Shown piece by piece: positions 3,947 through 61,120 of a stretch of DNA of 64,000 nucleotides; within the stretch, counting starts at the first letter, position 1, and the number at the start of each line of letters is the position of its first letter. This DNA comes from Alcaligenes faecalis. GTDB lineage: Bacteria > Pseudomonadota > Gammaproteobacteria > Burkholderiales > Burkholderiaceae_B. The stretch spans positions 310,001 through 374,000 of the forward strand of contig NZ_CP168006.1 in assembly GCF_041521385.1 (NCBI RefSeq). Direction: 5' to 3'. Under the pieces are notes generated by a model. The model did no database searches. It had not been told where the DNA came from and was given only the letters and a program-made list of their open reading frames with translations. The translations under genes were made by a program, and so were the position numbers.

Positions 3947-5953
3947 TTACTTCACTTGCCGAGTATAAGCAGCATTCAACAAAGCAATACGGCGTGTCAA
4001 TTCTTGATAACGCTGACGCTGTTCGGGCTCTTGCAAGCCCGTAGCGACCAATGCCGACTGTTCTGCCTTGATCGCATCCAGTTCGATGCGATGCAACGCA
4101 TCACGCCATTCGCCTTGGGGATCAGGCAATTCTTCCTCGCCCAAAAGCTCCGTGGCCAGCGCCTCCAGCACAGGGGCCAGATCGGACTCGGGGTCCACGG
4201 CCTCCAGCAAAGCGCCTGCATGACGCGCCGAGCTGATATTGCTTAAGGCAATCAGCTCTTGCACTAAACGTAAGTGGGGACTTTGCGCCAAAATTTCAAG
4301 TTGTTGATCGCCCAGCTCGCCCACCAAGGTGGGATGCCCAATGAGCAAGCGCAGCAATCGCTTGGCCATCGGAGTCACGGCACGGCTGCCACCCAGGACA
4401 GCGCGCTCTTGCCGCTGACGATTATTCTTGCCACCCTTGCTGCGACCTGATGCTGGCCGCTCCTGATATTGCTCCTGAGGCTGCCAATCGGGCTCGTCCT
4501 GCCAGCCATCCATAGGCAGGCTGTCGGCAAAAGAGCCGTCAAAACCATCCTCAAACGGGGCCATCTCATCCGCTGCGGGCGCAGGCTGCACCGGTACGGC
4601 AGGCCTGGCAACCAGGCCATCTTGCGCCGGTGGCGTGTCGACAACCGGTCGACGCACCGGCTCTACTGTGCTCAGGCGCTGCGCCAGCTCGTCCGGCGTC
4701 AACAGCACCATGCGGGCAAATTCGTGCTGAATCTGCACTTTCAAGGTACTGTCGGCCAGCTCCAGCAGCAAAGGCAACGCTTCATGTACGCAGGCCGCAC
4801 GGCCTTCGGCCTCGTCCATGCGATGGCGAGCCGCCAGCTCATCCAGGAAAAAGCGCGATAAAGCGGCGGCTGCCTGGGCTTGCTCGCGAAACGCTTCCGC
4901 GCCGTACTCACGAACAAACGAATCCGGGTCGTGGTTATCCGCCAGGAACATGAAACGGATGGATACGTCGTCACGAACCAGGGGCAAGCAGGTGTTCAAG
5001 GCACGCCAGGCGGCTTTGCGCCCAGCCCTGTCACCATCAAAGCAAAACACCAGCCTGTCGCTGGCACGCATCAATTTGGTGATGTGGTGTTCAGTCGTCG
5101 CAGTGCCCAGAGTCGCTACGGCATTGTGCAAGCCATGTTGCGACAGCGCCACCACGTCCATATAGCCTTCAACAATCAGGACAAAACCTTCTTTGCGTAT
5201 GCCCTGACGCCCTTCCCACAAGCCGTACAGCTCGTGGCCCTTGGAAAACAGCGTCGTTTCTGGCGAGTTCAGGTACTTGGGCTCGCCTTTTTCGATCAGA
5301 CGGCCACCAAAGCCAATGATATGGCCCTTGGTACTGCGGATCGGAAACATGACGCGCGAACGAAAACGGTCGTAGCGACGACCATCCTCGGACTCGATCA
5401 CCAGGCCGGACTCAACCAGTTGCTTGTCTTCGTATTGTGGAAATACAGCCGATAGCCCACGTCGCTCCGTGCCTGTCCAGCCCAGGCCGAAACGGGCAGC
5501 AGTCTCCCCATCCAGGCCACGACGTTTCAGGTAGTCGATAGCAATGGGAGATTGTTTTAGCTGACGTAGGTAATGCCCCTGTGCCGTCTCAAGAATATGA
5601 TGCTGGCGCGATAGTTCGTCTTTACGACGCGCATCGGCAGCACGTTGGCGTGGGGTGCGATCTGCTTCGGGTACAGTCATTCCGACGGACCCAGCCAAGC
5701 TGCGTACCGCCTCGGGGAATGAAGCCCCGGTATGTTCCATCAGGAACGAGATAGCCGATCCGTGAGCGCCACAACCGAAGCAATGGTAAAACTGCTTGGT
5801 CGGACTGACTGTGAATGAAGGGGATTTTTCGTTGTGAAAAGGGCACAGGCCAAGCAAGTTGGCCCCGCCTTTACGCAACTGCACATATCGCCCGACGACA
5901 TCGACGACGTCGACACGGGCGAGCAGTTCCTGAACAAAAGATTCAGGGATCAA
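3947..5953 (-). CDS. dnaG: DNA primase DnaG
   Basis: Synthesises RNA primers at the replication fork. The 668 residues show a CHC2 zinc-binding domain (C37, H40, C58, C61), a TOPRIM catalytic core with VEGYMDVV (Glu262) and DGD (306-308), a low-complexity linker of about 100 residues rich in Pro, Gln and Asp after residue 440, and a C-terminal DnaB-helicase-binding domain. The start is a TTG: its N-terminus ([19 protein letters not shown]) aligns with the start of known primases, so no later start is possible. The TTG overlaps the rpsU stop codon (TTGA), which suggests translational coupling and a low initiation rate. Second gene of the macromolecular synthesis operon. Confidence 0.96.
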
Positions 5954-41927: not shown

Positions 41928-42962
41928 TTACTTTACGTCAGCCAGGGACGTAAAGGCATCTGCAAAGTAATTGTCCGGATTCAGTTGGGCTTGCTCCACA
42001 AAATCCTTGCGGGCTGCTTCAACCATACCCGGCGCGCCACAGGCGTACACCTGCCAGGCCGACAAATCCGGCAAATCAGCCAGTACCGCCTGATGCACAA
42101 AGCCCGTACGGCCTGTCCAGCCATCTTCAGGCTGAGCGTCGGAAATTACCGGAATGAAACGCAAGTTAGGCAGTTCACTGGCCCATTTCTCGGCCAGTTC
42201 GGACTGGTACAGATCCTTGGGTCGACGCCCGCCCCAGTACAGGGCTACTTCGCGCTGGCTGCCGGTTTGAATCAGGCGCTCGATCAAGGCCTTGATAGGA
42301 GCAAAACCTGTACCGCTGGCAAGAAAAACCATAGGAGCCGCGCTATCTTCACGCAGGAAGAAAGAACCCAAAGGCGCTTCCACGCGCAAAATTTCGCGCT
42401 CTTTCATGGCAGTGGCGCCAGCACCGAACACGTGATCGGTAAATACGCCGCCGGGCATGTGACGAATATGCAATTCCACCTGATTGTCTTCCCGTGGCGG
42501 TGTGGCCATGGAGTAGCTGCGACGGCTGCCGTCCTTCAGGATGAACTCCAGATACTGGCCTGGGTAATAACGGAATGGCTCGGACGACGGCATTTGCAGA
42601 CGCACCACCATCACATCATCACGTACCTTCTCCAGGCCCACCACGCGCGAGGGCATTTTGCGAATCTGGATATCAGTCGCCATACGAATTTCGTGGGACT
42701 CGATCAGCATGTCGCTGCTGGGCTTGGCCTGACAAAACAGAGTGTAGCCTGCCGCGCGATCCTCTTCGCTGAGCAATTGCTCAGGTGCGCGGCCTGCATC
42801 GTATGCACCTTCAATGACCTTGCCACGGCAAGACGAACAGGTGCCATTACGGCAGCTATAGGGCAAGACGATACCGGCATTCAGCGCGCCATCCAGCACA
42901 GACTGTCCGGGCTGTACGTCAAAACTGTGCCCGCTGGGCTGAACCGTGACTTTGAAACTCAT
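41928..42962 (-). CDS. 2Fe-2S ferredoxin/FAD/NAD(P)H oxidoreductase
   Basis: 344 residues with three domains: an N-terminal plant-type ferredoxin (cluster ligands C37, C42, C45, C77), an FAD-binding barrel (RRSYSMATPP) and an NAD(P)H domain (ASGTGFAPIKALIE, and CGAPGMVEAA). This is the layout of reductases of oxygenases (benzoate or phenol type) and of CDP-6-deoxy-glucoseen reductases, by which name such proteins are usually annotated in betaproteobacteria. The electron acceptor is unknown; it could serve the dioxygenase encoded at 51526-53447. It lies between parC and dadA on the same strand. Confidence 0.85.
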   Translation of the reverse strand: MSFKVTVQPSGHSFDVQPGQSVLDGALNAGIVLPYSCRNGTCSSCRGKVIEGAYDAGRAPEQLLSEEDRAAGYTLFCQAKPSSDMLIESHEIRMATDIQIRKMPSRVVGLEKVRDDVMVVRLQMPSSEPFRYYPGQYLEFILKDGSRRSYSMATPPREDNQVELHIRHMPGGVFTDHVFGAGATAMKEREILRVEAPLGSFFLREDSAAPMVFLASGTGFAPIKALIERLIQTGSQREVALYWGGRRPKDLYQSELAEKWASELPNLRFIPVISDAQPEDGWTGRTGFVHQAVLADLPDLSAWQVYACGAPGMVEAARKDFVEQAQLNPDNYFADAFTSLADVK

Positions 42963-42972
42963 ATCCAACACT

Positions 42973-50897: not shown

Positions 50898-51518
50898 TCA
50901 GGGAAGGAGAATATCCCCACGCTGCGCATAATACGGCCCGGCCCACCGAGCCAAAGGCCGATACGCCTCCAGATCCACTTTCCCCTTCTCGTCCATCAAG
51001 GACGAATCCACATGAAAAGCCAGCACTTCCAGAATATGCAGCTGGTTAACCCCACGTCCCAAATCCACCACCTGATCCAGCTTGCACTCCATCTGCACAG
51101 CAGCGCCATCCAGACGAGGCACGCGCACATGCTGACTGGGCACGAGGTGCATGCCCAACGCCTTTACCTCGCTCTGGCCGGGCGGCAAGGCAGCAGCACT
51201 GGTGTGAACCGCCGCCAGATCAGACTGACGGGACAACTGCACCACACATTCCTTATTCGCCTGCAGATTTCGAGCGGTATCCTTCAGACTGCCATCCTCA
51301 TTGCGGTTGATATTGATCGCCAGCATGGGCGGGCTGTGCGCCATGTAATTAAAGGAGCTGAACGGTGCCAGATTCACACTGCCCGACTCCTCCAAAGTAC
51401 ATATCCAGGCAATAGGACGCGGCACGATCAGGGACGTCAGCAAGCGGTAGGCCATGCTGTCGTCCATGCCCTCACAAGACAGGCTGCGATAGCAAGATGA
51501 TGTGTCAATCGTGTGCAT
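50898..51518 (-). CDS. FMN-binding flavin reductase-like protein
   Basis: 206 residues of the split-barrel flavin reductase family: YRLLTSLIVPRPIAWICTL, NLAPFSSFNYMAHSPPMLA (the FMN-binding strand-loop) and VMQ-like ECVVQLSR. Such proteins reduce FMN with NAD(P)H for monooxygenases or act as FMN-dependent esterase/decarboxylase helpers. It is seven bases downstream of the dioxygenase beta gene and last in the operon. Whether it feeds electrons to the dioxygenase is unproven: Rieske enzymes normally use an iron-sulfur reductase. The start at 51518 gives MHTIDTSSCYRSLSCEG; upstream codons are unlikely. Confidence 0.82.
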   Translation of the reverse strand: MHTIDTSSCYRSLSCEGMDDSMAYRLLTSLIVPRPIAWICTLEESGSVNLAPFSSFNYMAHSPPMLAININRNEDGSLKDTARNLQANKECVVQLSRQSDLAAVHTSAAALPPGQSEVKALGMHLVPSQHVRVPRLDGAAVQMECKLDQVVDLGRGVNQLHILEVLAFHVDSSLMDEKGKVDLEAYRPLARWAGPYYAQRGDILLP

Positions 51519-51525
51519 AGGCGGC

Positions 51526-52134
51526 CTAAATAAACAGCTGAATGGTGGGCAAATAACCATCCACACTCAACAAATCCACCCGTTTCTCCACGATCTCCCA
51601 AGCCTGATCGACGGCGCGCAAACGGTAGGAGGCAGTAGCGGGCAGAACCTCGGTTTTTTGCTTCTGATACTCCGAATAAATCAGATTGGTGCGCACGGTA
51701 TAGCAGCCGTCCTCATCAGGATGGTCGGACTGAACGCGCGGGTTTTGAATCACACGCAGGCCACGTACACCGGGTTGCAAGGAAAAGGCACGGTGATGCG
51801 ACAGGCGATCAATACGCAAGCGCATCAACATACGATTTTCCAAAGCAATGCACATGCGTCCTTCGGGGCTTTCCTGGCCGGATTCACCGGGAATCCAGTA
51901 CAGGCCATCCTGCGCGAATAGCTCGTACCATTCATCAAAGCGCCCCTCGTCCAGCAAGGCGTTCTCTTGCCATACAAAGTTCTGCAGGCTTTGTTGCAGG
52001 CTCATCGTTTGGTCCAGACGCTGGCCTGGCTCCTGGCTTTGCTGCGGATTCAATGGTTGCTGCTGTTGCTGCCCCTCTTGCAATGCATGCTGTACTTGGC
52101 CACTGCGCTGGCCCTGCTCTTGCGCCATCCCCAT
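51526..52134 (-). CDS. Aromatic ring-hydroxylating dioxygenase, beta subunit
   Basis: Structural small subunit (SnoaL/NTF2-like fold) of a Rieske dioxygenase. From the ATG at 52134, which shares a base with the alpha stop (TGATG), it has 202 residues. The family-like part starts near residue 44 (MSLQQSLQNFVWQENALLDEGRFDEWYELF) and includes RIDRLSHHRAFSLQPG. The first 43 residues are rich in Gln (a run of five) and look like an extra tail. Met3 at 52128 has the better-spaced AGGAG; the internal Met44 at 52005 is the shortest alternative. Confidence 0.88.
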   Translation of the reverse strand: MGMAQEQGQRSGQVQHALQEGQQQQQPLNPQQSQEPGQRLDQTMSLQQSLQNFVWQENALLDEGRFDEWYELFAQDGLYWIPGESGQESPEGRMCIALENRMLMRLRIDRLSHHRAFSLQPGVRGLRVIQNPRVQSDHPDEDGCYTVRTNLIYSEYQKQKTEVLPATASYRLRAVDQAWEIVEKRVDLLSVDGYLPTIQLFI

Positions 52135-53447
52135 CACTCCTGCTCCTGCTGCGTCATGCCTTGCTTCCAGGCACGGTATTGGTTGCGTATGACCCATTCA
52201 TTATTCGCATCGTCAAAGCTGCCCTTGCCCTGCTCACCTTCCTGCGCATCGTATTGACGCAGCAGATTCACCCACGGATTGCCTTGGGCTTTCAGGCTGG
52301 CTTGCTGGCTCTCGAACAAGTGCACATCGTCATGGGCGACAACACTCATGGGGGAGTAAACCAGACGGCTATAAGTCAGGCCGCGATCCAGCATTTCACG
52401 CGGTGCCCCTTTGGGCTGAAACACCCACACTTCCAGCAAGGTTCGGTCTACCGCCAAAGGTCGCAATACACGAATAATCTGCGGCGAACCCTTGGCTGCC
52501 ATGCTGGGGTAAAACACCACATTTTGTGGATTGAAGCCCAGCACCCGAGCCGCTTTCTCCTCGCCCCAGGCTTCGTTCATCATGGCTTCGTAACCCGGAA
52601 TCCCGGAATAGTCGGTATGAATGCTGAACTTGGTGCCCAGAATGCTGTGCCCGTTCGGGTAAGTTTCCACGCCCATGCGTGAATAGAAGTCATAGCCCGA
52701 ACCGAAGGGCAGCAATTGCTCCAGCGCGGTGGGGTCTTCTTCCTTGAACACTTCACCCACTTTGGCTGCCGAGCTGGAGGCCGACTCATGCGTGGAGATG
52801 GGATGCACGGTGTCGTTGATGTTCTCCATGTACATCTTCCAGTTGCAGTTGATGACGGTACGAATCGAACCGCCAGCCACCTGCAACTCCCCTTCCGGAG
52901 AGCGATCCGCCATATTGTCCAGGGCCTGCAACACATCACCGAAATATTCTTGCAGGCTGAACCCTTCCCTGCTGAGGCGGGCAAACACAAAGCCGCGATA
53001 GCTTTCTACCGCCCCCGGTGTGGACAGGCCGCCTGCAGCCGGACATTGCGAAAACTCCGTGTTTTCATAGGCATTTTTCAGCGGCACCGCCAGCAGCGAG
53101 CCATCCAGCTTGTAGGTCCAGGCGTGGTACGGACAACGCAGCATCTTGCCCACATTACCGCTGGGTTCGCTGACCAGTCTGGCCCCCTTATGGGCGCAAC
53201 GGTTCATCACGACCCGCACCGAGCCATCGCTATGGCGCAGCATGATGACGGGGCTTTGTGCCAAGGTCACCGATACATAATCGCCCGTTTTGGGCACCTG
53301 ACTTTCATGGCCCACGTAGAGCCAGGCACGGCTGAACAGCCGTTCCATTTCCAGTTGAAAGACGTCCTCGTCCAGATAGGCATCCCGATGGACCTGATGG
53401 TCCTGGGTCAGGCCCGACAAGGCGGCCTCGTTATTGGCATAACTCAT
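52134..53447 (-). CDS. Aromatic ring-hydroxylating dioxygenase, alpha subunit
   Basis: Catalytic large subunit of a Rieske non-haem iron dioxygenase that adds both atoms of O2 to an aromatic ring. The 437 residues have the Rieske [2Fe-2S] ligands C84, H86, C105 and H108 (CAHKGAR, CPYHAWTY) and the mononuclear iron site with the D-x2-H-x4-H pattern D212, H215, H220. The overall size and layout resemble benzoate/anthranilate-type alpha subunits. Substrate is unknown. It is 32 bases downstream of the ABC ATPase and overlaps the beta gene by one base. Confidence 0.93.
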   Translation of the reverse strand: MSYANNEAALSGLTQDHQVHRDAYLDEDVFQLEMERLFSRAWLYVGHESQVPKTGDYVSVTLAQSPVIMLRHSDGSVRVVMNRCAHKGARLVSEPSGNVGKMLRCPYHAWTYKLDGSLLAVPLKNAYENTEFSQCPAAGGLSTPGAVESYRGFVFARLSREGFSLQEYFGDVLQALDNMADRSPEGELQVAGGSIRTVINCNWKMYMENINDTVHPISTHESASSSAAKVGEVFKEEDPTALEQLLPFGSGYDFYSRMGVETYPNGHSILGTKFSIHTDYSGIPGYEAMMNEAWGEEKAARVLGFNPQNVVFYPSMAAKGSPQIIRVLRPLAVDRTLLEVWVFQPKGAPREMLDRGLTYSRLVYSPMSVVAHDDVHLFESQQASLKAQGNPWVNLLRQYDAQEGEQGKGSFDDANNEWVIRNQYRAWKQGMTQQEQE

Positions 53448-53479: not shown

Positions 53480-55366
53480 TCAGACCGCCATAGCGGGTAC
53501 TAAAGCAGGTGCAGCCTCACCCACGGTTTGGGACGGACAGTCCAAAGGCGCAGGCCAGATCTGGCTGGAATCATCCGGCGGCACACTGCCCAGCAAAAGA
53601 CGGGTATAGGGATGCTGCGGGTCGGCAAACACCTCGGCGGTATTTCCTTGCTCTACAACTTCACCGTTTTTCATCACCAGCACTCGTGTGCACAAATAAC
53701 GAATCACGGACAAGTCGTGCGAGATGAACACCACTGCGATGCCCAATTCCTTATTCAGTCGCAGCAAGAGATTCAAAATCAGCGCCTGCACCGACACATC
53801 CAGACCAGACACAATCTCGTCCGCCACCAACAGACGCGGCTGCACGCATAAGGCGCGGGCAATGTTCACGCGTTGCTTTTGCCCACCGGACAGTTCCGAG
53901 GGGAAACGCAAACCCGCATCCTGGGCAATGCCCACCTGCGCCATCAACTCGTCGGCTTTCTGACGACGCTGCTCGGGCGTCATCCCCGGCTGCAACTCCA
54001 GTACCTGCGTTACCAACTGCTGTACGCTGCGGCGTGGATTCAAGGCCGAATCCGGGTCCTGAAAGACCATCTGAATCGTCTGCGACAAGGACTCGCCCTG
54101 CCCTTTGGCAAACTGCTCGCGGGACTGACCTTGCACCAGCACTTGGCCACCGCTGGGCTGCAACAAACCCACCATCAAGCGGGCGACCGTGCTTTTGCCA
54201 CTACCGCTTTCCCCCACTACGCCGACCATCTCGCCAGGGCGCACGCTCAAGGACAGGGGCCGCAAGGCATACATCAGGTTACGACGGCCATTACGTGTCA
54301 CTCGGTAGCTGCGCTCCACGTTCTGAAACTCCACTAGCGGGGCGGACTCGTCAGAAGGCCCTTGCGGCAGGACATGCAGCTGGGCTTGCGCCGCCACATC
54401 ACGCGTCATACAGGGGCCGGCGCAACTGACCCAATGACCGGGCTTCACCGCTTCCAACTCTGGCGCACGCTGTTCACAAACCGCATTACGCGTAGGACAA
54501 CGACGGGCAAAACGACAGCCCGGCAAATCCCGCATGTCTTTCAGGCCAGGCATGATGTCGGCCAGCGACGGCAAGGCATACAAAGGGCCATTCAGTGCTG
54601 GCGTCGCATTCTTCAAGGCCCAGGAATAAGGATGTAGGGGTGTATCCAAGACATCCGCGGCAGGACCTTGTTCCACCACATCCCCGGCATACAGCACGGC
54701 CACCTCGTCACAGACGTGAGCAGCCATGCGCAGATCGTGGGTGATCAGAATCACGGCGGTTTGATGGCGCTGCTGCACATCGCGCAGAATCCGGATGATT
54801 TGCGCTTGGGTAATCACATCCAAGGCCGTTGTCGGCTCATCAGCCACAATCAATTCTGGGTCGCCGGAAAAAGCCATGGCAATCAAGATACGCTGGCACT
54901 GTCCGCCGGAAAGCTCATGGGCATAGCGTCCCAGCATGGACGGTGGATCAGGCAGACCCACTTCATGCAGACGTTCCAGGCAATATTGCTCGCGGGATGC
55001 ACGGGGAATACCCAGTCGAGCCAAGTGCTCGAACATCTGCTGGCGTATGGTCAGCACCGGATTCAACGAGGACAAGGGCTCCTGCGGCACAAAGGTCACT
55101 TTGCGACCCAGCAGACGACGCATTTGTGCACCCGTGACCACTGAACCCTGAAAACAGACCTGGCCCGAGGACAGACGCAGGTTGCTGGGCAACATGCCCG
55201 AGATCACCCGCCCTATCATGCTCTTGCCCGCGCCGGACTCCCCGACCAGACCCAAGGTGCGGCCTGCTTGCACCGCAAACGAGACCTTGCGCAGCAGCTC
55301 GACCGATTGCCCTTGTACCGGCACCGAGACACTGACTTGCTTGAATTCAATAACCGGCACGCTCAT
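53480..55366 (-). CDS. Fused double ATPase of an oligopeptide-type ABC importer
   Basis: 628 residues joining DppD-like and DppF-like ATPases. The first domain has Walker A GESGAGKS (42-49), signature ELSGGQCQR and Walker B LIVADEPTTALD, followed by the Cys-rich oligopeptide motif (GCRFARRCPTRNAVC). The second has GESGSGKST, ELSGGQKQR and LLVADEIVSGLD. Both sites look catalytically complete. The start shares one base with the DppC-like stop (TGATG). Such double ATPases serve peptide, opine and nickel importers; specificity cannot be read from them. Confidence 0.93.
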   Translation of the reverse strand: MSVPVIEFKQVSVSVPVQGQSVELLRKVSFAVQAGRTLGLVGESGAGKSMIGRVISGMLPSNLRLSSGQVCFQGSVVTGAQMRRLLGRKVTFVPQEPLSSLNPVLTIRQQMFEHLARLGIPRASREQYCLERLHEVGLPDPPSMLGRYAHELSGGQCQRILIAMAFSGDPELIVADEPTTALDVITQAQIIRILRDVQQRHQTAVILITHDLRMAAHVCDEVAVLYAGDVVEQGPAADVLDTPLHPYSWALKNATPALNGPLYALPSLADIMPGLKDMRDLPGCRFARRCPTRNAVCEQRAPELEAVKPGHWVSCAGPCMTRDVAAQAQLHVLPQGPSDESAPLVEFQNVERSYRVTRNGRRNLMYALRPLSLSVRPGEMVGVVGESGSGKSTVARLMVGLLQPSGGQVLVQGQSREQFAKGQGESLSQTIQMVFQDPDSALNPRRSVQQLVTQVLELQPGMTPEQRRQKADELMAQVGIAQDAGLRFPSELSGGQKQRVNIARALCVQPRLLVADEIVSGLDVSVQALILNLLLRLNKELGIAVVFISHDLSVIRYLCTRVLVMKNGEVVEQGNTAEVFADPQHPYTRLLLGSVPPDDSSQIWPAPLDCPSQTVGEAAPALVPAMAV

Positions 55367-56250
55367 CAGTGCGCTCCTCGTTGCTTGAGCCGAGGATCCA
55401 GCGTGGTGCGCAAACCATCACTCAGCAAATTGAAACCCAGCACTGCAAACACAATGCCAATCACTGGCGCCATCAGACCCCAGCCTGCCTGGTAAATCTG
55501 GTCACGACCATCAGCCAGCATCACGCCCCAGGCCACCACATCAGAAGGAACAGAAAGGCCCACGAAACTGAGGATGGCTTCAACCACAATAGCCACCCCC
55601 ATTTGCAGGCTGAACAAAGTGACGATTAGTGGCGCCACGCTGGGCAGCACTTCGCGCAGCATGATGCGCAGGTGGGAAAAACCCAGCAGATGCGCGGCAT
55701 ACACATAATCACGCTGACGCGCCACCAGCACTTCGGCCCGAACCACGCGATAAAAACGGGTCCAGTCCACCAGCACCACGGCCAGAATCACATTGAACAG
55801 ACCCGTGCCCAAACCCACCATCAACATCATGGAAAACACCACGGGCGGGAATGCCATCCACAACACCACCAGGGAGCTGACTCCCCGGTCGAACCAGCCA
55901 CCGATATAGCCCGCCAAAATCGCCAGCACCGTGCCCAGCACCATGGTGCCGGCGGCAGCGGTCACCGCCACCTGAAAGGCCACACGGCTGCCATAAATCA
56001 GGCGCGACAAAATACATCGCCCCAGGCCATCCGTTCCCAAGGGATACTGCGCCAGACCGCCGTCCTGCCACGCGGGTGGCAAGAGCGTGGCCAGCAAGTC
56101 CTGAGCATTAGGATCATTGGGCGCCAGCAAAGGGGCAAACAAGGCCACCAGAGCAAAGATCAAGACCAGAGTGCCGCCAACCAGCACTTTGGGATGGGCC
56201 AGCACAGGCCGCAGCCGCGCTTGCCAGAAAGAATGTGGATGCGCGCTCAT
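55366..56250 (-). CDS. ABC importer permease, DppC type
   Basis: Inner membrane permease of 294 residues with an N-terminal membrane helix (VLVGGTLVLIFALVALFAPLL), a periplasmic loop (PLGTDGLGRCILSRLIYGSR) and five further helices. The EAA loop is HLLGFSHLRIMLREVLPSV, for ATPase contact. The ATG at 56250 overlaps the DppB-like stop by four bases; a frame open to 56523 gives a non-membrane tail and is an artefact. Part of the SBP-B-C-DF operon. Confidence 0.92.
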   Translation of the reverse strand: MSAHPHSFWQARLRPVLAHPKVLVGGTLVLIFALVALFAPLLAPNDPNAQDLLATLLPPAWQDGGLAQYPLGTDGLGRCILSRLIYGSRVAFQVAVTAAAGTMVLGTVLAILAGYIGGWFDRGVSSLVVLWMAFPPVVFSMMLMVGLGTGLFNVILAVVLVDWTRFYRVVRAEVLVARQRDYVYAAHLLGFSHLRIMLREVLPSVAPLIVTLFSLQMGVAIVVEAILSFVGLSVPSDVVAWGVMLADGRDQIYQAGWGLMAPVIGIVFAVLGFNLLSDGLRTTLDPRLKQRGAH

Positions 56251-57260
56251 GCGGACCTCAGACGTGGATTCATAACGCTGTACAAGCCATCGACACAGAA
56301 GTTGACAGCCAGCACCATCAAACAGAACACCAGGGCCACGCCCTGAATCAGGGGAAGGTCGTGGTTCTTGATGGCTTGCACCATCAGATTGCCGATACCG
56401 GGGAAGGAGAAAATGACTTCGATCAGCAAGGTGCCGCCAAACAAAAAGCCAAATTGCACACCGATCAAGGTCAAGGTAGGCAGGGCCGCGTTTTTCAGCA
56501 TATGCACCAGCAACACGCGCCATTCCGGCACACCGCGCAGGCGGGCGACATTCACGTACTGGCTATTGGCCGTTTCAATCAGGCTGGAGCGCAGCACACG
56601 AATCACGATGGGACTGAAAGCCAGGGCCAAGGCCAGGGCGGGCAGAAGCAAATGCGAAAAGGCATCCCACCAGGCTTGCCACTGACCGCGTATCAAGAGG
56701 TCAAACAGCAGAAAGCCCGTGCCGCCATCCACAGCGGGTGTCCCTTCCATCCGCCCCATAAAGGGCAGGACCGGGAACAGCACACCGAACACCACGATCA
56801 AAATAATGCCCCACAGAAAGGACGGCACTGACAGAAGCAGCACCAGCACAAAGTCGGCCACAAATTCGATCTTTTTCTTGTCCAGCAAGTACAGAACAAG
56901 GCCGCCGGGAATGGAGATCAGCAAAGCCATCAGCAAGCTGATACAGGCCAGCTCCAGCGTGGGTGGCAAGGCTTGCGCCAGCAAACCTGTCACTGGCTGA
57001 TGAAAGAAGATGGAGTTGCCCAGATTGCCACGAAACACACCGCTCAACCAAACCTGGTACTGATGCAAGGCCGAGCCATCCATGCCCAGCTCAACACGCA
57101 GCGCCTGCGCATCGGCTTCGGTGGCCGAAGGAGGCAGCATCATGCCCAGAGAGTCAGCGGGAATGACGCGCAGCATGAAGAACACGATCATGGACAGCAG
57201 GAACGCCGTCACCAGCACGAAGACGAGCTTGCGCGCCATCAGGAAGCAAACGTTTTTCAT
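56247..57260 (-). CDS. ABC importer permease, DppB type
   Basis: Inner membrane permease of 337 residues with six predicted helices. The N-terminus (LVFVLVTAFLLSMIVFFMLRVIPAD) and the EAA loop (RLRGVPEWRVLLVHMLKNAALP) are typical of the DppB/OppB family. The ATG at 57260 (MKNVCFLMARKL) is used; Met8 (57239) is an alternative. Neither has a good ribosome-binding site. It is 82 bases downstream of the binding-protein gene, with a strong hairpin in between. Confidence 0.92.
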   Translation of the reverse strand: MKNVCFLMARKLVFVLVTAFLLSMIVFFMLRVIPADSLGMMLPPSATEADAQALRVELGMDGSALHQYQVWLSGVFRGNLGNSIFFHQPVTGLLAQALPPTLELACISLLMALLISIPGGLVLYLLDKKKIEFVADFVLVLLLSVPSFLWGIILIVVFGVLFPVLPFMGRMEGTPAVDGGTGFLLFDLLIRGQWQAWWDAFSHLLLPALALALAFSPIVIRVLRSSLIETANSQYVNVARLRGVPEWRVLLVHMLKNAALPTLTLIGVQFGFLFGGTLLIEVIFSFPGIGNLMVQAIKNHDLPLIQGVALVFCLMVLAVNFCVDGLYSVMNPRLRSA

Positions 57261-57342: not shown

Positions 57343-58866
57343 TTACTGCCAGGAATATTCCTGCGGCAGGATGTAGCCCGTCTGATAGGTGTTGAGCTTC
57401 AGGCCCTTTTTGTAGGCAATGGTGGAGATGGACTGCAGCACCGGCAGACTCCAGGCCTGTTCCGCCGCTTCACGATTCAGCGCCTGATAACCAGCTACTC
57501 GCTTGTCCTCGTCCATCTGCCGGTTCAGCTCATCCAGGGTGCCCGCCAAACGCTCTTCTTTCCAGGTGGAAAAACGCAGGCGTGGGTCCAGAATGCGGCC
57601 CGTGAAAATCTCCGGATCGCCCGTTGCATTGGCCCAGCTGTACAGCATCACACCCGTCAATTTGGACGAATGACTCAGCTCCAGATACTTGGCCACGGTA
57701 ATTTCCTCAACCGTGGTTTGCACGCCAATCTGGCTCCACATTTGTGCCACCGCACGGGCGACGTCGTAGTCCGATGGGAAGGTGTTATTGGTGGAGTACA
57801 AAGTAATGGTCAGCGGTTTTTCCGTGCTGTAACCCGCTTTGGCCAATTCCTCCACCGCCGCTTTCTTGTCAAAAGGAATGTTCAGATCAGGCACATCACC
57901 GGGCGAGCCTTTGGTAGCCAGAACCGACAAGGGCTGGGCGACATTTTTGTAAAAGGCACGAGACAGACCGGCCTTGTCGATAGCCATATTCATGGCACGA
58001 CGCACGTGCACATCCTTGAAGCTGTCCACATAGCTGGGCATCTGCAGAATGTAGATCTCGCTATACGGGTAGACCTTGGCTTCCAGCTTGGGATTCTTTT
58101 CCAGACGGGCAATTTCGCGCACCGGGATCTGAACCGAGACATCAGCCCGACCGGACTCAACCGCAGCGACGCGTGCCGAGGAATCCGGCACAATTTCAAA
58201 CACGACCTGCTTCAGGTCTGGTGCACCTTGCCAGTAGTCCTCAAAGGCTTCCAGAGTGATGCGGGAACCACGCTGATAATCGCTCAGCTTGTATGGGCCT
58301 GCGCCAATTGGGCGCTTCAGGAATTCCTCTTCCCCTACCTTCTCGAAATAGGCTTTGGGCAGGATATAGGCCGACAAGAAGGCCAGGCCTTTTGGGGCCG
58401 TTGGCGTGGGCGAACTGAAATGAATAATGGCTTCCAGCGGGCCGGTCACTTCCACCGACTTCAGGGTGGGCAACATGCCGTTCAGAGCCAGTGTTTTCTT
58501 GTTGATTGCACGATCGAAGGTGAACCTCAAGTCCTCGGCCGTCATGTCGCTGCCGTCATGGAATTTCACTTTGTCGCGCAGCTTTACCTTCAAGGCCTGG
58601 CCTTGCTCGTCTGCCCATTCCCAGGACTCGATCAGGCGTGGTGCCACCTTCAAATCGTCACCCACAAACAGGGGTGAATCAAACACGGCCTTGTAGATCG
58701 ACTGGCCAGCCGGAAAGGTGACCGAGGTCGGATCCCAGGACGGAATATCAACTGGGAAAGCAATTTTCAATTCGCTCCCGGCTGCCTGGCTGGCCGTCCC
58801 CCAGCCCATCATCAAGGCAGCCCCCAAGGCCAGCCCCATTACGCTTTTTCGCAACGCTTTCACCAT
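57343..58866 (-). CDS. Extracellular solute-binding protein, family 5
   Basis: Periplasmic ligand-binding protein of an oligopeptide/dipeptide-type importer (507 residues). The signal peptide (1-29, ending TASQAA) is followed by the family 5 elements: LKIAFPVDIPSWDPTSV, VKFHDGSDMTAEDLRFTFDRAIN, YKLSDYQRGSRITLEAFEDYWQ, and MNMAIDKAGLSRAFY. The ATG at 58866 has AGGGG; a GTG seven codons upstream is less likely. First gene of the minus-strand transport/dioxygenase operon. Ligand unknown; oligopeptide-type binding proteins also bind opines, glutathione and other non-peptides. Confidence 0.93.
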   Translation of the reverse strand: MVKALRKSVMGLALGAALMMGWGTASQAAGSELKIAFPVDIPSWDPTSVTFPAGQSIYKAVFDSPLFVGDDLKVAPRLIESWEWADEQGQALKVKLRDKVKFHDGSDMTAEDLRFTFDRAINKKTLALNGMLPTLKSVEVTGPLEAIIHFSSPTPTAPKGLAFLSAYILPKAYFEKVGEEEFLKRPIGAGPYKLSDYQRGSRITLEAFEDYWQGAPDLKQVVFEIVPDSSARVAAVESGRADVSVQIPVREIARLEKNPKLEAKVYPYSEIYILQMPSYVDSFKDVHVRRAMNMAIDKAGLSRAFYKNVAQPLSVLATKGSPGDVPDLNIPFDKKAAVEELAKAGYSTEKPLTITLYSTNNTFPSDYDVARAVAQMWSQIGVQTTVEEITVAKYLELSHSSKLTGVMLYSWANATGDPEIFTGRILDPRLRFSTWKEERLAGTLDELNRQMDEDKRVAGYQALNREAAEQAWSLPVLQSISTIAYKKGLKLNTYQTGYILPQEYSWQ

Positions 58867-59028
58867 TTGTCCCCTTTTGTTATGCACTTCATTCCAGCGT
58901 CAGTCCGCCTTGCGAAAAAGTATATAGTTTATTCTTAAATTAAATGGATAATGGTTTTCCCTATAATTTATTTTCTTTAATATCAATCTATTATCAAAAA
59001 AAACAAAACAATATACTTTTCTTTAAAA
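58867..59028. promoter_or_regulatory. AT-rich divergent promoter region with a long-spaced inverted repeat
   Basis: This region between the transport/dioxygenase operon and the V4R gene is far more AT-rich than its surroundings. A 10-base repeat AAAAGTATAT (58916-58925) recurs in inverted form as ATATACTTTT (59011-59020). A -10-like TATAAT occurs at 58962-58967. The pair of sites is a candidate for binding by the adjacent GntR regulator with looping across both promoters. Confidence 0.5.
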
Positions 59029-59538
59029 ATGACTAAATTCAGAGACAGATTAAGCTGGGATACGGCACAGGGCCAGATTTTGGACGCCGATCGGCGCTAC
59101 ATGATGATGCGTGCCGACGTGTTGATGGGGCTGTTTCGCCGGCTGGATGAACCCGCCCGAACGCAGGCGCTGGATGCCCTGGGGCAGGCCGTAATGGAAC
59201 AAGGCGGCTTGTCAGCCAAGGCGTACTGGGAGGCCATCGAACACAAGCCACAGGCTTTACTGGACAGCATCGCCGACATCTCGGCACAACTGGGCTGGGG
59301 AAACTGGGACATTCAAGCAGAGGCCACGGGAGCTTTACAGGTTCGTGTGAAAAACAGCCCCTTTGCCTGGGGATTTGGCCCCCATGATCGGCCCCTGTGC
59401 CGGCCTATCGTTGGTATGCTTACAGCCGTCGGCCAACTGATCTATGATCAGCCCGTCCAGGTGCAGGAAACACACTGCTGCGCACAGGGACGCCATGCCG
59501 ACTGCCTGTTCACCGTCTTGCCCAAAACCAATGAATAA
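59029..59538 (+). CDS. Stand-alone XylR_N/V4R-domain ligand sensor
   Basis: 169 residues that match only the N-terminal sensor part of phenol/aromatic-sensing activators (DmpR, XylR, MopR). Residues about 10-85 fit XylR_N (LDADRRYMMMRADVLMGLFRRL). Residues about 90-165 fit V4R with a putative zinc site C124, E147, C151, C159. There is no AAA+ domain and no DNA-binding domain. The GntR gene begins inside its last codons (eight-base overlap). No Shine-Dalgarno is visible. It probably binds an aromatic ligand; how the signal is passed on is unknown. Confidence 0.82.
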   Translation: MTKFRDRLSWDTAQGQILDADRRYMMMRADVLMGLFRRLDEPARTQALDALGQAVMEQGGLSAKAYWEAIEHKPQALLDSIADISAQLGWGNWDIQAEATGALQVRVKNSPFAWGFGPHDRPLCRPIVGMLTAVGQLIYDQPVQVQETHCCAQGRHADCLFTVLPKTNE

Positions 59539-60211
59539 AAACCAGCCTGCCGCCCCCAAACTGAACATACGCCAGCAGGTCTACAAACACCTGCGCAGCC
59601 GCATGCGCAGTGGCGACATCAGCTATGACGACCGTCTGGTCGACCATGAAATTGCTGCTCAACTGCAAGTCTCGCGCATGCCTGTGCGCGAAGCCTTGCT
59701 GCAACTGACCAACGAAGGACTGCTGGAGGGCACCTCGCGCGGCTTCATGCTGCGGCGCTTCACCCCGGCCGATATTGCGCAGATTTTTGAAATACGCATG
59801 TTGCTGGAGCCTGAAGCGGCCGCTGCTGCCTGCTTGCAAGCCAATCTGGAAGGGTTGGCCTTGATGAACAAGGCGGCCAATGCCTCAGAAAAAGCCCATG
59901 CCGCCGCCGACCCCATGCAATACATGATTGCCAACGATGCGTTTCGGGAAAGCTGGATTTCGCTATGCCCCAACCCGCACTTGAGCACCATGATTTTTCG
60001 CCTGAGTGACCACGTAGAAGCGGTACGTCTGGCCACCTTACGCGATACGCGCTATCGGGAACTGTCCATGCAGGCAACCCGTGGCATCCTGCAATCCTTT
60101 CTGGATAAAGATCCGGAACAGGCGCGCGAGCATGTACGCACGAATCTGCGCCATGCCTCCATGAGCTATTACGCAACGCTGGATGAAATGCTGGAGCGTC
60201 AAGCCAGCTAA
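59531..60211 (+). CDS. GntR-family (FCD) regulator
   Basis: 226-residue transcription factor: winged helix-turn-helix at about 8-75 (VYKHLRSRMRSGDISYDDRLVDHEIA, SRMPVREALLQLTNEGLL) and an FCD ligand domain at about 85-215. Its ATG overlaps the V4R stop (ATGAATAA), so the two proteins are translationally coupled. It is divergent from the ABC-dioxygenase operon and is the only regulator nearby, so it is the likely controller. Ribosome-binding site is absent, in line with coupling. The FCD histidines are less evident than in the urate regulator at 32652. Confidence 0.88.
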   Translation: MNKNQPAAPKLNIRQQVYKHLRSRMRSGDISYDDRLVDHEIAAQLQVSRMPVREALLQLTNEGLLEGTSRGFMLRRFTPADIAQIFEIRMLLEPEAAAAACLQANLEGLALMNKAANASEKAHAAADPMQYMIANDAFRESWISLCPNPHLSTMIFRLSDHVEAVRLATLRDTRYRELSMQATRGILQSFLDKDPEQAREHVRTNLRHASMSYYATLDEMLERQAS

Positions 60212-60244: not shown

Positions 60245-61120
60245 TCAAGGCTGTGCTTTCTGATCCACTGCCTGTGCAATTACGTTGCCGATAGCCGCGA
60301 TGGCCGCATTGCGCGCTTGCATCGAGGCTTTCGTTTCCGTGATGTAGACAGCAGCCACCAGCGGCGCACGCTCTGGTGGCCACATCACCGCCACCACCCC
60401 ACGCGTGCCGTACCCTGCGGCTCCCGTTCGATCTGCCACGATCCAGCTTTCAGGTACTCCCGCCCGCAGCAAAGGCCCACCCACTTCGTTATGACGCAGC
60501 CAATCAATCAGCCGATCACGGTCTGGGGTTGTAAGCGCATCGCCCAGGACCAGACTTTGCAAGGTCTGAACCATGGCTTGTGGGGTCGTTGTGTCACGCA
60601 GATCGCCGGGCGTGGCTTCATTCAGACTGGGCTCATTACGGTCCAGACGCGTCACCGTATCGCCGATCGTGCGTAGAAAGGAGGTGACAGCCTGCGGTCC
60701 ACCCAGCATCTCCAGCACCCCATTGGCAGCGGTATTGTCGCTGTTGCGCATCGTAATCGCACACAATTGAGCCGCTGACACATACTGGCCGATCAGGTTT
60801 TCCGTCGTGGGGGCGTAAGACTGAACAGCTTCCTCTTTAATTCGCCAGGCCGTCTTCATCGCCCCTGGCCCTCTGGCCAACAAGGCAGAACAAATCAAGG
60901 CTTTGCTGGTGCTGGCCATGGGGAAACGTTCGTCGGCGCGATACTGCCAGAGCTGGCCATCTGCCGTATCCAGCACGGCCAGACCGATACGGGCCTGCAA
61001 GGACTGCTCTGCCTCTTGTGCGGCCTGAACCACCGGATGGGTTTGCGCTCCAAGCACATGGAAAGGCAAGCCCGCCATGATCAAGGTCGCTGCCAGTGGT
61101 TTCAGTCTTTGTGTGCTCAT
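60245..61120 (-). CDS. Class A beta-lactamase with an R-T-G box
   Basis: Periplasmic serine beta-lactamase of 291 residues with a signal peptide (about 1-25). The active site is complete: S70-T-S-K73, SDN at 127-129, the omega-loop Glu163 in EPSLN, and RTG (231-233) in place of the usual KTG. Cys77 and Cys120 fit the disulfide of TEM-like enzymes; the extra pair of class A carbapenemases is not apparent. An R-T-G box is characteristic of carbenicillin-hydrolysing (CARB/PSE) enzymes. It is a monocistronic chromosomal gene with no LysR-type regulator next to it. Its spectrum cannot be predicted. Confidence 0.92.
   Translation of the reverse strand: MSTQRLKPLAATLIMAGLPFHVLGAQTHPVVQAAQEAEQSLQARIGLAVLDTADGQLWQYRADERFPMASTSKALICSALLARGPGAMKTAWRIKEEAVQSYAPTTENLIGQYVSAAQLCAITMRNSDNTAANGVLEMLGGPQAVTSFLRTIGDTVTRLDRNEPSLNEATPGDLRDTTTPQAMVQTLQSLVLGDALTTPDRDRLIDWLRHNEVGGPLLRAGVPESWIVADRTGAAGYGTRGVVAVMWPPERAPLVAAVYITETKASMQARNAAIAAIGNVIAQAVDQKAQP

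Follow-up and report, generated by a model that had tools for sequence, protein, structure and literature searches.

A free-standing protein with a predicted DmpR-type sensor fold, encoded with a GntR-family regulator and divergent from an importer-oxygenase operon in Alcaligenes faecalis

The aromatic-compound sensor fold of the V4R type is usually built into bacterial gene activators. V4R domains are also known to occur alone and, though the evidence is limited, are thought to signal in cis or in trans and to bind hydrophobic ligands, according to an excerpt of PMC2253512; an excerpt on the activator DmpR gives its zinc ligands as Cys151, Glu172 (as printed), Cys177, and Cys185 (PMC7264223). 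A second described system that bears on this work is IadDE (PDB 9o71), the oxygenase that starts indole-3-acetate (IAA) breakdown in Variovorax (excerpt of PMC12633357). Here, we analyze a stretch of 64,000 nucleotides from Alcaligenes faecalis (hereafter the window; contig NZ_CP168006.1, positions 310,001 to 374,000), in which an operon for an importer and a Rieske oxygenase stands divergent from two overlapping genes, one for a GntR-family regulator and one for a DmpR-type sensor fold that forms a protein of its own, here called V4R. An earlier note, made from the letters of this DNA alone, had singled out this gene pair.

V4R is the only Pfam domain in the 169-residue protein, and neither an AAA+ nor a DNA-binding domain was found with Pfam, which bears out the proposal of the earlier note that a sensor has here been separated from those parts. 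The XylR_N domain also listed there has no Pfam match at E ≤ 1 in the window protein or at E ≤ 0.01 in any of 40 aligned V4R family members, although the predicted structural model superposes end to end on the sensors of MopR, DmpR, and PoxR. Because this alignment runs over residues 1 to 169, the full sensor unit is present; the fold takes up all 169 residues, and the chain carries no DNA-binding domain. The MopR alignments point to C124, E147, C150, and C159 as the probable zinc ligands. In an alignment of 40 sequences that includes that of the window, the first three do not vary and C159 hardly does. The earlier assignment of C124, E147, and C159 thus stands, whereas that of C151 gives way to C150, since C151 is not conserved and C150 aligns with the MopR/DmpR cysteine, is invariant and, at 26 residues from C124, repeats the Cys151–Cys177 spacing printed for DmpR in that excerpt. 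Taken together, sequence and model show a free-standing protein with a complete predicted effector-binding fold of the DmpR/MopR type and its zinc ligands. Counted ungapped from the zinc cysteines, DmpR pocket residues 155, 159, and 170 (Cys+4, Cys+8, and Cys−7) correspond to V128, T132, and V143, so that a pocket of the phenol type would not be expected.

The downstream gene encodes a regulator whose GntR winged helix and FCD domain both exceed the curated Pfam cut-offs. Its ATG at 59531 overlaps the end of the V4R open reading frame (ORF; 59029–59538) by 8 nucleotides (ATGAATAA), just as first noted, and an ATG at −8 is kept in all six other loci of the genus Alcaligenes in our pair table. 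Conservation of the pair in relatives, on which the earlier proposal had been made to depend, was surveyed in 268 genomes of the family; matches to V4R at E ≤ 1e-3 were found in 28 of them, and those in 22 are strong (E ≤ 1e-39). By match coordinates, a GntR gene lies directly downstream of V4R in 22/22 genomes with a strong match, a count that leaves out the six genomes whose V4R matches are all weak (E 1e-7 to 3e-4). Measured to the nearest GntR start, the distance from the V4R stop is −8 in the genus Alcaligenes; four others have −4 to −1, another nine +7 to +15, and the last two a longer or unsettled distance. The six weaker matches (G013, G018, G036, G037, G119, and G263) are perhaps other stand-alone V4R proteins. 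No published V4R–GntR regulatory pair was found in literature searches, no publication was found that joins V4R with a Rieske oxygenase, and the main texts of the iad publications searched contain the word V4R zero times. The claim that such a pair is undescribed holds to that extent; stand-alone V4R domains and their signaling in cis or trans are already in print in the excerpt cited above.

The region between the two operons contains two copies of the palindrome AAACARTATAYTGTTT, each with 2 mismatches, as against 0.01 expected in the window, where there are no others. They lie 91 bp apart, compared with 86 to 89 bp in 16 relatives that have two sites. Eight places in the whole genome match at 2 mismatches, and only the window two stand close together; at ≤3 mismatches, the genome total is no higher than in a reversed control (28 versus 29), and the evidence is therefore limited to the local pair and its conservation. 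Among 22 intergenic regions (the window and 21 others), a site at ≤2 mismatches is found in 20, compared with 0.023 regions in Markov shuffles, and two sites at ≤3 mismatches spaced 86 to 91 bp in 17, compared with 0.000; these counts describe rather than test, since the motif was derived from the same regions. No site is found in G227 or G205, and a single one in G157, G159, and G161. A further conserved element with a CCCTR core after an A+T-rich stretch is found in 20 of the 22 regions, including the window, either between both sites or just past the sole site, and could be part of a promoter or a further binding site. In two V4R-less loci considered below, it is not between the sites, and a CCCTG stands just past site 2 instead. 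A σ70 promoter scan of 58800–59100 returned one match, compared with 0.8 expected. As a separate observation, the palindrome is present twice in L008 (5267–5307), with 1 and 0 mismatches and a spacing of 25 bp, at the 3′ end of another GntR gene and ahead of a minus-strand ORF at 4234–5202.

On this evidence, GntR is probably a repressor that would bind AAACARTATAYTGTTT near both starts and thereby control the catabolic operon as well as its own two-gene V4R–GntR operon, a step that we regard as strongly indicated. More weakly indicated is what V4R would do: it would bind either the aromatic acid that is imported, probably an indole-like one, or the product of the first oxidation step, and would tune the GntR switch in trans, through contact with GntR or by keeping the effector at hand for it. 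We favor, with a probability of roughly 45%, the view that V4R modulates this switch as an accessory and is not its obligatory sensor, over a purely metabolic binding protein. A wider version, which we find rather doubtful, would make the DmpR-type domain a portable subunit that reports a ligand to GntR in trans in Alcaligenaceae and serves other aromatic or indolic operons in other proteobacteria, with the central CCCTA element possibly taking part in V4R-dependent control.

Several observations weigh against the modulator reading. The palindrome was derived from the same regions in which it was counted. G085 and G090 hold GntR, importer, and Rieske genes with no V4R detected even by profile, and keep both operator sites (2 and 3 mismatches, 88 bp spacing), although the module of G090 is split over two contigs and the absence may reflect one loss event, since both belong to the same genus, shared with G084. 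A paralogous GntR at G000:C1:2501263, in the window genome itself, has no V4R alongside; an operator-like site with 3 mismatches lies near it, upstream of a gene judged by eye to be acyl-coenzyme A (CoA) ligase-like. Among the protein-search matches listed, 151 GntR relatives (E ≤ 1e-12), most without an assigned V4R status, compare with 13 of 50 V4R candidates (E ≤ 1e-3). Replacement of the metal ligands of the FCD consensus, a possible sign that GntR has given up sensing, is seen in the paired GntRs and also in the three unpaired GntRs aligned (L007, L020, and the second copy in L008), and we therefore rejected ligand loss as a sign that sensing has moved to V4R. Finally, V4R outside the family sits inside enzyme and transporter operons with no adjoining intact GntR. 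Taken with G085 and G090, this means that a dependence of GntR on V4R, one form of the suggestion in the earlier note that the sensor may act through GntR, is not supported.

A window-type Rieske gene (≥56% identity) is found in 26 family genomes, namely the 22 with a strong V4R match and G085, G090, G122, and G123; in the stretches examined of the last two, importer, GntR, and V4R were not found. Twelve family genomes have a GntR match and no strong V4R match, and the loci opened were those in G055, G085, G090, G122, and G123. At E ≤ 1e-30, GntR is matched in five of 399 genomes of the order, the window genome included, and it has no match in the plasmid search. V4R is found in three plasmid records, none with an adjoining GntR; the two annotated loci place it between a TRAP permease and a flavin adenine dinucleotide (FAD) oxidoreductase, and between two oxidoreductases.

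The strongest competitor to the modulator reading, with a real but clearly less than even chance, is that V4R belongs to the pathway and not to its regulation: as a small carrier or buffer, it would bind a hydrophobic substrate or intermediate from aromatic or indolic acid breakdown, hand it to the enzymes, and share an operon with the repressor only incidentally in Alcaligenaceae. Of 35 V4R loci on genome contigs, a set that overlaps the family genomes, 12, all from Alcaligenaceae, have GntR directly downstream, and an IadD-like Rieske gene, whole or as a fragment, is present in 25. Outside Alcaligenaceae, V4R is embedded among enzyme and transporter genes, often with 4-nucleotide overlaps, and neighbors at the remaining loci (Pfam-scanned in L007, L012, L014, L016, L017, L030, and L037) include CoA-transferase, opine-type dehydrogenase, TRAP or ABC transporter, acyl-CoA dehydrogenase-like, Rieske, and FAD oxidoreductase genes. 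GntR, moreover, persists without V4R in two genomes. What speaks against a carrier is the strict pairing in 22/22 family genomes, a fold that is a sensor fold, and the variety of accompanying enzymes, from which it follows that V4R is no fixed enzyme subunit. Regulator genes were also seen at V4R loci, some of them on short contigs: a MarR gene at L023, L029, L037, and L132, and GntR in divergent orientation at L020, further off at L132 and L133, and as one intact and one broken copy at L007. At three V4R–Rieske loci without GntR (L030, L035, and L036), repeated GGCATCAA boxes lie in the divergent promoter region that separates V4R from opine-type dehydrogenase, and are maybe the site of another regulator.

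The overlapping genes, the 22/22 pairing, and the sensor fold would also suit a split one-component regulator, in which GntR could sense its effector only through V4R and a stable complex of the two would release DNA on ligand binding. We consider this improbable, since G085 and G090 retain GntR, the two operator sites, and the target operon yet show no trace of V4R, and the GntR paralog stands without it. That V4R is a relic of a former σ54 activator with no present role is very improbable: it is the fastest-evolving of the three genes compared, is missing in G085 and G090, and has a short open frame in G205 (128 residues), but its ratio of nonsynonymous to synonymous substitution rates of 0.10 to 0.18 (window against four Alcaligenes relatives; GntR, 0.03–0.07; Rieske alpha, 0.01–0.02) places it under purifying selection, its zinc ligands are invariant or near-invariant in the 40 aligned sequences, and free-standing V4R proteins of about 150 to 215 residues are widespread. 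At this locus, a free-standing V4R comes with a constant neighbor in the genome, a predicted operator, and a target operon that can be named, and there are natural relatives in which the V4R gene alone is missing; V4R signaling in trans is therefore directly testable.

Table 1. Features of the V4R–GntR locus and the divergent operon (window positions)
Feature	Position	Strand	Basis
Stand-alone V4R protein, 169 residues, complete predicted DmpR/MopR-type sensor fold	59029..59538	+	Pfam, structural model
GntR family regulator, FCD subfamily, 226 residues	59531..60211	+	Pfam GntR 1.3e-13, FCD 2.3e-19
Probable operator 1, AAAAAGTATATAGTTT, transporter side	58915..58930	.	palindrome conserved across genera
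Central conserved element, GGTTTTCCCTATAATTT	58953..58969	.	intergenic comparison
Probable operator 2, AAACAATATACTTTTC, 7 nucleotides ahead of V4R start	59006..59021	.	palindrome conserved across genera
SBP_bac_5 solute-binding protein, first gene of divergent operon	57343..58866	-	Pfam 3.3e-79
OppB/DppB-type permease, approximate start	56247..57257	-	profile matches
OppC/DppC-type permease, approximate start	55366..56247	-	profile matches
Fused OppD-OppF-type ATPase	53480..55366	-	two ABC_tran stretches
Rieske oxygenase alpha subunit, IadD relative	52134..53447	-	52% identity to 9o71
Rieske oxygenase beta subunit, IadE relative	51526..52137	-	best PDB match 7yls_A, 3.6e-23
Flavin reductase-like protein, last operon gene, ORF open from 51566	50898..51500	-	PDB 3bpk, 1e-33

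The start of the solute-binding protein gene (Table 1) was picked by eye, and its ORF is open from a GTG at 58887. The match of the flavin reductase-like protein, 3bpk, is nitrilotriacetate monooxygenase component B. Because the operon itself has only this flavin reductase-like gene, a BenC-like ferredoxin-NAD reductase encoded at 41928–42971, about 8 kb from the Rieske genes, is a possible electron donor for the Rieske pair. On the other side, a class A beta-lactamase gene (60245–61120) is convergent with GntR; it scores above the NCBIfam bla_class_A cut-off, and its best-scoring model, SCO, is below that model's own cut-off.

Among solved structures, 9o71 (IadDE) comes closest to the Rieske pair; 7yls_A has the same sequence as in 9o71, and 7yls and 8h2t are near-identical chains. 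We rejected the window cluster as the canonical iad locus, which is found elsewhere in the same genome at G000:C1:2332000-2351900 (genes recognized by eye except IadD), and the window system is therefore paralogous. The canonical IadD copy at G000:C1:2343217 shares 58% identity with 9o71, and the two fall together in an eight-row set supported 100/100, whereas the window alpha subunit falls outside the clade of characterized IadD. It keeps seven of the nine IAA-pocket residues listed in an excerpt of PMC10374108, with changes L211I and H311Q, and retains K322, R329, and the iron ligands of IadD. All 25 V4R-linked Rieske proteins have Ile or Val at position 211 and Gln at 311, and H311 is kept in all eight IadD-clade rows; Gln311 was not upheld as a mark of V4R linkage, being found also in 15 of 18 database relatives, counted irrespective of linkage. 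The V4R-linked proteins do not form one clade (nine changes, with rows of unassigned V4R status counted as lacking it), in a tree with a very long outgroup branch and an unsafe root. The window pair probably acts on a related aromatic or indolic acid. These data point to another IadDE-like oxygenase system, one that has an importer of its own and whose oxygenase resembles the enzyme that starts the breakdown of the plant hormone auxin, in bacteria known for auxin degradation. Matches on G000:C1 are also paired at constant offsets of 39,112 and 45,250 bases with identical scores, which suggests that two large stretches, of about 39 and 45 kb and with a Rieske oxygenase gene in each, have been duplicated, or else an assembly artifact.

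The locus resembles the iad locus (IadCDE with the MarR-type regulator IadR) in its Rieske alpha and beta subunits, which are nearest IadD and IadE among solved structures, and differs from it in the dipeptide-type importer and V4R–GntR that stand alongside. GntR resembles repressors of the FCD subfamily in its two domains and, if the palindromes of the divergent promoter region are its operators, in these putative sites; it differs from the FCD consensus, in an alignment read by eye, in having N, R, T, and N at the metal-binding Asp/His positions. The archaeal MJ1460, also a stand-alone V4R protein, is farther from the window V4R in structure and sequence. V4R itself shares the modeled fold over its full 169 residues, the zinc ligands, and the ligand spacing with the NtrC-type aromatic activators DmpR, MopR, PoxR, and XylR, and unlike the σ54 activators DmpR, XylR, and MopR, it carries neither the AAA+ σ54 interaction domain nor the DNA-binding domain.
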